Notes under the pieces: model-generated
The model's database searches: none
What the model was told of the DNA's origin: nothing
Seen by the model: the letters and a program-made list of their open reading frames with translations, nothing else
NCBI GenBank assembly: GCA_020631555.1
Contig: JAHDGY010000003.1
Coordinates: 27,512 to 91,511 of the forward strand
Reading direction: 5' to 3'
DNA: 64,000 nt
Origin: Flavobacteriales bacterium
GTDB lineage: Bacteria > Bacteroidota > Bacteroidia > Flavobacteriales_D > Parvicellaceae
Shown here: in pieces, positions 60,374 to 64,000 of the stretch
Layout: the number at the start of each line of letters is the position of its first letter
Position numbering within the stretch: the first letter of the stretch is position 1
Program-made: the position numbers and the translations under genes

Positions 60374-61093
60374 ATGGCGACAGTGAATTTTTATTTAGTC
60401 CGTAGGAATAGGGGAGAGCGCAAAACAGTTCAGGTTAAATACTACGATAAGTTGGCGGATGGACACAAAACCGACTTCTTTCGAAGCTTAAAATTGAAGG
60501 TATATCCCGAACAATGGAAGCCGACAATCGACAAAGAAACAAAGCGCGAAAAATGGTTGACGGATAAGGCTCCGGGCAGCTATGCGGTGAATCAAGAATT
60601 GGGGTTACTAAAGGATCGAATTTTCGAAGTCAGAAAACGATTAACGGTTACGGATAGGTATGGATTTAGTACCTACCCATCCATCGCTCAAATGTTGGAA
60701 TCGTTTCATTCAGTGTTGGACGAAAATTCATCTTTAGAAAACATCATCCGCCAGCCGAAAGTAGACCCGGAACCAGAAGAACCACAAACCGAAGTTGGAA
60801 TTACAGATTTACTTCAACGGTACATCGATGAAGGAGGCAGAGATGGAGAAATGAGTTTAGGAACTTCCCGAAACTATGCTTCGGCCAAGGATCATGTTCA
60901 GGCTTTTGAAAAGTTGCTGGATCGAAAGTTGACGTTGGACCAGCTTTCACGGAACACATTCAACGATTTCAAAGGTTATTTATTGAAGAGAAAAGATTAC
61001 GGCGGAGCAGGCTTGTTAAACTACACCGCAAAGAAGTATTTAGGCAACGTAAGGGACGTTATGCGGAATTATGAAGTAGATACCCAGAGATGA
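60374..61093 (+). pseudogene. Tyrosine recombinase, N-terminal arm plus SAM-like core-binding domain (frame 1)
   Basis: MATVNFYLVRRNRGERKTVQVKYYDKLADGHK...GTSRNYASAKDHVQAFEKLLDRKLTLDQLSRNTFNDFKGYLLKRK; Bacteroidota conjugative-transposon-type integrase N-terminus. Confidence 0.75.
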
Positions 61094-61935
61094 ACAAAGG
61101 TTACTTTAAAGGCGTTTATCCAACCGTAGACAACCAGATTGTGTTTGCCCTGTACGAAGAGTTGAACAAGCTAAAAGAACTCGATTTTCGGCAGCTAATG
61201 TTAGATCAATACTTGGTAAGATTTACCGATGCTCCAGACAATGGAGAATCCTTCTGGACTACCAAGGAGTTAAGTGAAATAATGCAGGTGACAACGGATA
61301 CGATTTGTAAGTACGTCACTCAGCACAATTTACCAGGAAACCTTACCCCGATGGGAAGTATTGAAACTTACCAATTCGATAAGGAACGTGTGATAAATTT
61401 CGTTGTCCGTTACGGATGGTATCAAGATCGGAACCTATTAATTAATCGGTCGGCCATTTACGAGCGTGTGCGGGATTGGTATTGCTTCGCTAGTGAAGCA
61501 CCTTTGAGGTTTTCCGACTTGAAAGCTCTTAATCCTACTGTTCATCTTCGTACGAGTTATGATTCCGGTGGGAGGCCTGTAAAGGCTGTTCACCTGTACC
61601 CTCAAAAAACAAAACGTCACCGGGTATTGCAGCAATTTCCATTGTCTGAATATTGCTTGTCTATTATGGATAAGTATTCGGACGAGGTTAACGAAAATCA
61701 AGTTTTGCCGATTGTCGAATCCAACGCTACGATTAACGAATCGCTAAACAAGCTATTAGAATTATCTGCGTTGTTTAACGACAAGGTTGTGGTGTACGAA
61801 GGGCGCGGCAAGGAGTTAATTGAATCTCCAGAACCTAGGTGGAAGGAATTGACCTTTCATACATCACGTCATAATTTCGGTACAAATATGGCCGCGCGCG
61901 GCATGGATGTGTTTAAGATTATGCAGCTAAGCTAA
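61090..61935 (+). pseudogene. Tyrosine recombinase catalytic half with embedded HTH, truncated before the catalytic Tyr (frame 2)
   Basis: APLRFSDLKAL (Arg I box), LTFHTSRHNFGTNMAARGMDVFKIMQLS* (HxxR box) then stop; internal FWTTKELSEIMQVTTDTICKYVTQHNLPG HTH. Confidence 0.75.
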
Positions 61936-61949
61936 ATTTGAGTTTCTTC

Positions 61950-62183
61950 CTATCTTACTCTTTTTCCAAAAAGAAAACCAGTACTAGCTGAAAGCATCAT
62001 GGTTAGTACTGTTTCAAGCCTCTCCGTCATGGAGCCGTCTCGCACGGCAAAGATTATAATGCACAAAATTATAATCACCAAAGCAATTAAATCCTTGTAA
62101 TTGTGATACACAAGTGCTTTTAGGCTAACATTAGGCTCCCTAACTCCTTGTATTCTTTTGTCATCAATGCGTGGCTCGCTCAT
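61950..62183 (-). CDS. Small protein with two predicted TM segments, co-operonic with AAA ATPase
   Basis: DLIALVIIILCIIIFAV and LTMMLSASTGFLFG hydrophobic stretches; 4-nt ATGA overlap with upstream ATPase gene. Confidence 0.7.
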   Translation of the reverse strand: MSEPRIDDKRIQGVREPNVSLKALVYHNYKDLIALVIIILCIIIFAVRDGSMTERLETVLTMMLSASTGFLFGKRVR

Positions 62184-63508
62184 AATTCAAGTTGTGAATG
62201 AGATGCTAAAAACGGAATATAACTGAACTGGCCATTTAAATAACCTCTACGAATTTCTTTGTCAAAACGCGGCTTAAATTCTGCCAAGGAATTTAACTTG
62301 CTAGCTCCAGTTTTGTCCTTTTCACAAAACCAAATTTCGTCTTGTCGGAATAAATCAAGATCCAGCAAATGAGACTCGTGAGTAGTAAAGATTATCTGAC
62401 CAGCTTTTCGAGGTTCAGAATTGAAGTAGAGCGATAATACTTCTTTAATCAAAACAGGATGGAAACTTGTCTCAAGTTCGTCAATCACGAATACTTCTCC
62501 TTTATGCAAGGTGTGGTGAATTGCTGGTAATAATTCAAAAAGTCTCTGGGTGCCTTTTGACTCTTCACTAAATCTAAATGTTACAAGTTCGCCCGATTCA
62601 TTTTGATGGATTGTGGATATTTTAGCAAAACTTAGTTGTTCCTCATCCTTATATGCACTGTATAAGTCGCCTTCAAACAGAAAATCTACTCCACTTAAAA
62701 TTCCATCCAAAATTCCTTCCTCAATAGAGAGAGGCAGAGAATAGCCCAAGCTTTTTAAGTCAGACCGTGAGTGTTTAACAATAGAGAAGTCAGCAATTCC
62801 AACGTTCGCTTTTCTAATAAATTCTCGTGACGCATTTAAGAATGATTCATCTGTCAAAAAAGTGTGCGCAAGACCTACAGATGTTTCTTTAGATGCAAAA
62901 GAAACTATATTTAAAATCTGAGAAAACCATTTATACGGAAGTTCCATTTCCTCAATTTTTCGGTTGTAACCATCACTGAAAAATGTTTGATTTTCAGACA
63001 ATTCCTCCGCGTAAAACTCCTCTCGATACTTCTCTTTGTTACTTTTTTTCCTATTCGGATTAACGGTAAGCTTTGTTTTGCCTTTATGAATTTTCCTTCT
63101 GAATATGAGAACGCTCGAACTGGCTATTATTTCAAATAACGATTCCATTGAAATGGCATTATCCGTAATTTCAAGAATATAATTGTATCGCTTATTTCCG
63201 CTTAGAAAATGAATATCAAACTTGGTTGGTCTTTTGGGAAAACCTGTAAGTTTAAAACCGGGAATCCTTAATTTTCTATCAACGTCCTTAATTGGATTGG
63301 TAATCAAATCTTGGAGGTATTTAAGCGCCAGCAATAAATTGGTTTTTCCAGACCCATTTGCCCCGTATATAGCGCTTGATCTCAAAACCTTTTTATCCCT
63401 AAATGAGGTCATGTGATTTTCATGCCGCTTATAATTACCCGCGAACATGTCAAACTTAATTTCTTCGTTTATGGACTTAAAATTCGAACAATAAAATGTC
63501 AATAGCAT
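62180..63508 (-). CDS. AAA15-family (COG1106, RloA/AbiLi-like) ATPase
   Basis: CSNFKSINEEIKFDMFAG; Walker A IYGANGSGKTNLLLAL; SEESKGTQRLFELLP signature; Walker B VFVIDELETSFHP; FTTHESHLLD. Confidence 0.85.
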   Translation of the reverse strand: MLLTFYCSNFKSINEEIKFDMFAGNYKRHENHMTSFRDKKVLRSSAIYGANGSGKTNLLLALKYLQDLITNPIKDVDRKLRIPGFKLTGFPKRPTKFDIHFLSGNKRYNYILEITDNAISMESLFEIIASSSVLIFRRKIHKGKTKLTVNPNRKKSNKEKYREEFYAEELSENQTFFSDGYNRKIEEMELPYKWFSQILNIVSFASKETSVGLAHTFLTDESFLNASREFIRKANVGIADFSIVKHSRSDLKSLGYSLPLSIEEGILDGILSGVDFLFEGDLYSAYKDEEQLSFAKISTIHQNESGELVTFRFSEESKGTQRLFELLPAIHHTLHKGEVFVIDELETSFHPVLIKEVLSLYFNSEPRKAGQIIFTTHESHLLDLDLFRQDEIWFCEKDKTGASKLNSLAEFKPRFDKEIRRGYLNGQFSYIPFLASHSQLEL

Positions 63509-63548: not shown

Positions 63549-63567
63549 CACGTGAAAGTTTCACGTG
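63549..63567. promoter_or_regulatory. 19-nt perfect inverted repeat upstream of AAA15 operon
   Basis: CACGTGAAA-G-TTTCACGTG, about 40 bp upstream of the ATPase start. Confidence 0.6.
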
Positions 63568-63705
63568 AAAAAATCACATATAATTTTATTTATCGCAACT
63601 TTATCATGTGATAACGTTCATTTTCTTATCCTAGAGTCAATTTTCATTATCTGTAGTGGTCTAAAAAACTGGACAGGGAAAATAGAATAATTAAATTTCT
63701 GTCAA

Positions 63706-63792
63706 ATGAAAAGAACACGACTAAAATTCAGTGCTTCGTTTAGGGGTTTGAAGTCCAACGGAACGAAAACTTACGCTAAGGAATTTATTTAA
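63706..63792 (+). pseudogene. IS3-like OrfA N-terminal scrap fused to unrelated sequence
   Basis: MKRTRLKFSASF|RGLKSNGTKTYAKEFI*; first 12 aa resemble IS3-group OrfA start. Confidence 0.45.
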
Positions 63793-63903
63793 GTTCTTTT
63801 AGGACTTTGTATACTGTTGATTTACCAATATTCAATTCTTGGGCAATGGCTATTGCGCTATTTCCTTTTTCATTCATCGCTTTTACTTTCTTGCGGTCTA
63901 CTG
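63785..63903 (-). pseudogene. Serine recombinase/resolvase C-terminal HTH remnant
   Basis: VDRKKVKAMNEKGNSAIAIAQELNIGKSTVYKVLKELK*: resolvase-type C-terminal HTH, N-terminal part absent. Confidence 0.65.
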
Positions 63904-63999
63904 TGTGTATTCCGGTAAATTTGACCATGTAATTCCGGCTGAAAATGACCAGTCGATTCCGGATCAAATTGACCACTTTATTCCGGAGTAAATTGACCA
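63904..63999. mobile_element. Terminus of IS21-like element with four 24-bp tandem repeats (continues past window)
   Basis: Four consecutive 24-mers matching NNNNATTCCGGNNNAAATTGACCA with few mismatches. Confidence 0.6.
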
Positions 64000-64000
64000 G

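Follow-up and report, generated by a model that had tools for sequence, protein, structure and literature searches.

The window analysed here, a stretch of 64,000 nucleotides from a Flavobacteriales bacterium, contains two overlapping genes that on balance probably constitute a self-contained defence cassette of the abortive-infection type, derived from RloAB/AbiL and having a small membrane effector where the nuclease used to be. The genes form a conserved pair of single origin in which a small membrane protein stands in the place of RloB. The pair is a mobile unit of 1.7 kb, occupies a site that is also used by another defence candidate, and has an operator in common with RloB-type relatives. 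If this reading is right, the cassette would have an anti-phage function, the small protein would be its effector, acting by forming a pore or depolarising the membrane, and the cassette would regulate its own expression.

The first gene (62180-63508, minus strand) encodes an RloA/AbiLi-type ABC-like ATPase of 442 aa, an assignment based on the open reading frame, Pfam and PADLOC matches, motifs and phylogeny. The Walker A, Walker B and signature-like motifs listed in the initial annotation are present and intact (GANGSGKTN, VIDELETSFHP and SKGTQR, respectively), together with FTTHESHLLD and the His-loop. The Pfam match is to AAA_21 (1.5e-35) and the best PADLOC match is to AbiLi (4.7e-79), and PADLOC AriA also matches the protein (6e-35) via the generic AAA_21 model. 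One of the features of RloAB/AbiL, an AAA_21 ATPase of the RloA/AbiLi type whose Walker motifs are intact, is therefore present here. A PDB sequence search with the ATPase profile returned no relative, and structure prediction from three sequences was poor, with a mean pLDDT of 46.

The stop codon of the ATPase gene overlaps the start of the second gene by 4 nt (ATGA, 62180-62183, minus strand), as first annotated, and translational coupling is likely. The second gene (61950-62183, minus strand) predicts a protein of 77 aa with a polar N-terminal arm, helices at residues 29-49 and 54-73, and the C-terminal sequence GFLFGKRVR. An AF2 model of moderate confidence (mean pLDDT 68) places helices at 21-27, 29-49 and 54-73. 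The helix at 29-49 is strongly hydrophobic and that at 54-73 is moderately so and rich in Gly and Ser; the earlier description of two hydrophobic stretches holds with the caveat that the second is moderate only, and the two membrane helices are likewise predicted with moderate confidence. Under the positive-inside rule the protein would form a hairpin with both ends in the cytoplasm. A segment conserved among the homologues, (F/L)(I/V)Y-x-NYK(D/E)(I/L)(I/L)A, precedes the first helix, and the second helix contains small residues and has the conserved end GF(L/I)FGK(R/K). Searches of Pfam, PHROGs, NCBIfam, PADLOC and PDB with the 77-aa ORF gave nothing credible.

A pattern scan for the ATPase, covering one genome per species in 84,980 species, yielded three close relatives, in a Kordia MAG (L005), Tenacibaculum finnmarkense TNO006 (L006) and a Lutibacter MAG (L007), and a further one (L039) was found in sampled Bacteroidia genomes. 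The complete ATPases of L005, L006 and L039 are 56-62% identical to that of the window. Every ATPase found at an identity of at least 56% is immediately followed by a small ORF of 74-78 aa, so that all five close loci, window included, have the pairing whose conservation the initial annotation proposed to check, with the membrane protein homologue in the same place. The ORF encodes 77 aa in L005 and 74 aa in L039, each with the same 4-nt overlap, 74 aa in L006 with an overlap of 1 nt, and 78 aa in L007, where it begins 10 nt after the ATPase gene. The small proteins of L005, L006 and L039 share 38-41% identity with the window protein (tblastn 6e-16 to 6e-18), and two pairwise BLASTP comparisons gave 3e-21 and 2e-23. 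Differences between the small ORFs fall mostly in the third codon position (0.45, 0.26 and 0.60 for positions 1, 2 and 3), as expected of a constrained protein. Small ORFs are common, and one could arise by chance at the 3′-end of an ATPase gene, but this explanation is already refuted by the codon-position bias and by the four complete loci, which have all kept the sequence of the ORF, its length, its position and the overlap at its start.

Complete members of the group number four (window, L005, L006 and L039). In L007 (6001-6532) the ATPase is reduced to a remnant of 94 residues and the small ORF is open, diverged and contains a long isoleucine run, its product being recognised by position and profile only. 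Weak genome matches to the small protein in L003 and L004 were dropped as unrelated reading frames. A profile built from three ATPase sequences gives at least 725 bits for the ATPases with a membrane partner and at most 285 bits for all others. The pairing is rare and patchy, in marine and other Bacteroidota, and was present in 1 of 99 genomes of Tenacibaculum and, across the family, in 2 of 351. The pair was absent from plasmids, viral contigs lacked the small protein and yielded a single distant RloAB, and phage records contained only ATPases of <60% identity.

The partners of more distant ATPases were surveyed in all ATPases from the protein searches of the phylum and class samples that were returned as a locus, together with the best plasmid match and one viral contig. 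All 57 ATPases that share 37% identity or less with the window ATPase have RloB downstream, intact in 52 and broken or fragmentary in 5, which bears out the earlier view that the ATPase is of the RloA/AbiL kind with RloB as its usual partner. Each of the 52 intact downstream ORFs matches PF13707 (RloB), and none of the 57 loci encodes the small membrane protein. Absence of the small ORF beside homologous ATPases, which the initial annotation named as an argument against the pairing, is thus seen in all 57 distant relatives, where RloB is found, but in none of the five close ones, a distribution that indicates an exchange of partner rather than a stray ORF. The window ORF has no PF13707 or AbiLii match and the cassette includes no other gene; neither of the two window proteins matches DUF4435 of the PARIS effector AriB, and no match to the HNH nuclease PtuB of Septu was found in the pair. 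T. finnmarkense contains both kinds of locus, the cassette L006 and an RloAB pair (L080). On an Agrobacterium plasmid (L064, 1-5990) an RloAB pair is located directly behind a CBASS-like operon with genes for a patatin phospholipase, a DncV-like cyclase and a ThiF protein.

In an IQ-TREE phylogeny of 60 ATPases that includes the four complete members, the ATPases with a membrane partner form one clade (100/100) within RloA, enclosed by RloB-type groups with support of 99/98 and 96/93. Every bootstrap tree requires one change of partner, with the RloB labels of four broken RloB loci resting on fragments. A single clade inside RloA suggests that the nuclease partner was probably replaced once by the small membrane protein. 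Among well-conserved positions, two separate the two kinds of ATPase most clearly. Residue 427 is Gln in those with a membrane partner and Arg or Lys in 55 of 56 RloB-type ATPases, and the former also carry a one-residue insertion at 255. These positions may be involved in the choice of partner.

A candidate operator, the tandem palindromic motif GTGATTTTTTCACGTGAAACTTTCAC (63552-63577, minus strand), begins 69 nt before the start codon of the ATPase gene. The form GTGAN5TCACGTGAN5TCAC, starting 65-76 nt before the ATG, is found in all four complete members, is the sole strong block shared in upstream alignments, and occurs once in the genome of the window. Of 56 RloB-type ATPases, 11 have a single GTGAN5TCAC site upstream, where dinucleotide shuffles give 0.07, and spacings of 3, 4, 6 and 7 gave almost no matches. 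These 11 loci (L010, L011, L014, L036, L041, L042, L045, L061, L063, L070 and L078) have the site 16-99 nt before the start, and in three RloB-type loci two sites are separated by 71-73 bp, an arrangement like that of a looping repressor. In many of the RloB-type loci the site is directly behind a sequence like TAnnTTTG, the -7 element of Bacteroidota, and would thus overlap the start of transcription.

GTGAN5TCAC is not overrepresented in the host genome (10 other sites, 15 in the reversed control), and a large host regulon was rejected on that ground. The window operator resembles the ParB site parS at about 14 of 16 positions; identity with parS was rejected as the other copies of the operator are unlike it. 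We know of no described regulator for GTGAN5TCAC. The site is kept where RloB is absent, which excludes RloB as the binder and leaves the ATPase or an unseen host factor. Because the site is common to the RloB-type relatives and the ATPase gene alone is common to both kinds of locus, autoregulation is probable, and the candidate operator would serve self-repression by the ATPase.

The insertion site can be compared between relatives in Tenacibaculum. In T. finnmarkense the cassette is flanked on one side by an aminotransferase-containing gene and on the other by an aminopeptidase gene. A genome with flanks of 90-92% identity (G784) has an empty site of 74 bp where L006 has 1708 bp, so the insertion comprises no more than the two genes with their promoter motif; the cassette is a mobile unit of about 1.7 kb. 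In another genome (G794), with 96% identity in one flank and 99% protein identity in the other, the site is occupied by a gene for 520 aa (L101, 10477-12039, minus strand) that matches PDC-S25 (PADLOC 1.4e-172), a ThsA-like, SIR2-type defence candidate. A site that holds different candidate defence modules in two genomes and is empty in a related one bears the usual signature of a defence hotspot, and this site may be a small one. The best evidence for a defence role comes from this shared site, a single locus in a single genus.

A tRNA-Ala gene is found beside the L039 cassette (L066, 7065-7306), and an 18-bp copy of its 3′-end is located 166 bp downstream, just before the cassette. The two 18-bp copies do not bracket the cassette, and integration of the cassette at the tRNA is not supported; the repeat is better seen as a minor relic of an integrated element than as the termini of the cassette itself.

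In the window, the 3′-end of the cassette adjoins a remnant tyrosine recombinase (60374-61935, plus strand) that is probably outside the module. It is split into two frames with a 4-nt overlap and ends before the GH...Y active-site end, in keeping with its earlier description as a wrecked integrase. The remnant also bears an extra segment that is DnaD/helix-turn-helix-like. On the other side are insertion-sequence fragments (63651-64000) that repeat elsewhere in the genome, again as first described. The repeat at 63651-63742 has about 20 further copies in the genome, and the fragmentation of the assembly is explained by the many of these that lie at contig ends; a second end repeat (63904-63978) is found at 4 other places, and the contig ends at the last base of the window, inside these fragments. 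To the left of the recombinase are housekeeping genes, for a trigger factor-like protein, a peptidase, a class II (D/K/N-type) tRNA synthetase and a sugar isomerase. The initial annotation is correct as to the kind of ATPase, its usual RloB partner, the small membrane protein and the conserved pairing, but the defence island that it placed around the pair is not borne out, with housekeeping genes on the left and the assembled sequence stopping on the right.

The ABC ATPase AriA of PARIS keeps AriB sequestered and lets it go when it senses a phage protein (PMC12409363), and AAA ATPases of such a kind neutralise nuclease or toxin partners and form a hub of partner-swapping (PMC10440598). Transmembrane partners in known systems are regarded as suicide effectors (PMC9122126). 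The simplest interpretation puts the small protein in the position of the effector, with the membrane as its target. The RloA-type ATPase would be the sensor and control subunit and, perhaps as an oligomer like AriA, would keep the small protein inactive until a phage product altered its state. The released small protein would then assemble in the inner membrane and depolarise or permeabilise it, and infection would stop. The cassette would supply its own operator, the paired GTGAN5TCAC, for self-repression. The weak second helix and the moderate AF2 confidence speak against an effector role, and the open small ORF in L007, where the ATPase is cut down, is mildly against a freely toxic protein, provided that in L007 it is expressed and active.

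The main rival to a membrane effector is a tether, with the ATPase in the roles of sensor and effector alike, working at the membrane on DNA or proteins, for example during phage DNA entry, and the small protein only as its anchor. The protein is short, its conserved polar arm and the (F/L)(I/V)Y-x-NYK(D/E) segment by helix 1 could bind a cytoplasmic partner, and the retention of the small ORF without a full ATPase in L007 suggests that on its own it may do no harm; in SNIPE, location at the membrane serves defence (PMC13190303). A tether is nevertheless unlikely, as the small protein stands in the operon where a nuclease effector would otherwise be, and no nuclease site is known in the RloA ATPases themselves.

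A toxin-antitoxin pair, in which a constitutively toxic membrane peptide is held by an ATPase antitoxin and stabilises the mobile element, with defence secondary, would fit the overlapping genes, the palindromic operator and the mobile 1.7-kb unit, and AAA ATPases are antitoxins in validated pairs (PMC10440598). The order of ATPase first and toxin second is, however, also that of AbiL and PARIS, and deletion of ariA in PARIS is not toxic (PMC9122126). With the open small ORF beside a broken ATPase in L007 as weak contrary evidence, such a pair appears quite improbable. A role other than defence, whether housekeeping or in the service of a mobile element (maintenance or transport, for instance), would agree with a window free of defence neighbours, but is very doubtful for a pair that is rare and patchy (4 complete copies), is nested in RloA and has a site in common with a SIR2-type defence candidate.

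The preferred reading, a defence cassette with a membrane effector, can be set against known systems. The cassette resembles RloAB/AbiL in its homologous ATPase, in having the ATPase gene first with an overlapping downstream partner, and, for some loci, in a related GTGAN5TCAC operator. It differs in that a membrane protein of 74-77 aa takes the place of the Toprim-like RloB/AbiLii partner (PF13707) and in Gln427. With PARIS (AriA-AriB) it shares two genes, an ABC ATPase sensor and an effector, but it has no DUF4435 Toprim effector and its ATPase is much closer to RloA/AbiLi. The cassette thus has neither the RloB of RloAB/AbiL nor the DUF4435 protein of PARIS, yet most likely would work like them with another effector. 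The retron Ec48 has a small membrane effector of the 2TM type. In the RT-nitrilase system with a 1TM protein, a small transmembrane protein is also the presumed suicide effector (PMC9122126). Systems of this sort have a different sensor, and searches of Pfam, PHROGs, PADLOC and PDB gave no sequence relation for the small window protein. Septu, retron PtuAB and the AAA hub pairs of NetFlax node D29 likewise have an AAA hub that exchanges toxic partners, but the partners named for D29 are nucleases (Toprim, RloB, HNH, HEPN and AarT) and none is a small membrane protein (PMC10440598). The pairing of an RloA-type ATPase with a small membrane protein has no record in the four family libraries or in the literature searched, mostly outside subscription papers, and it is unnamed there, as had been supposed.

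We propose, tentatively, that this is the first ATPase of the RloA/AbiL/AriA group with a non-nuclease effector, a membrane pore or depolariser of about 75 residues, and that the ATPase is also a repressor acting via GTGAN5TCAC. If true, infection sensing, effector release and de-repression would be one ATPase-driven step. The same kind of ATPase with an entirely different effector is a natural experiment indicating that sensor and effector are separable, and it points to residues of the ATPase that may choose the partner, such as Arg/Lys to Gln at 427. It adds a compact, putatively membrane-acting module of 1.7 kb that current defence libraries cannot detect, and the operator common to both kinds of locus makes the regulation of RloA-type systems testable. 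The pairing is suggestive of a known immune switch redirected to act on the membrane.
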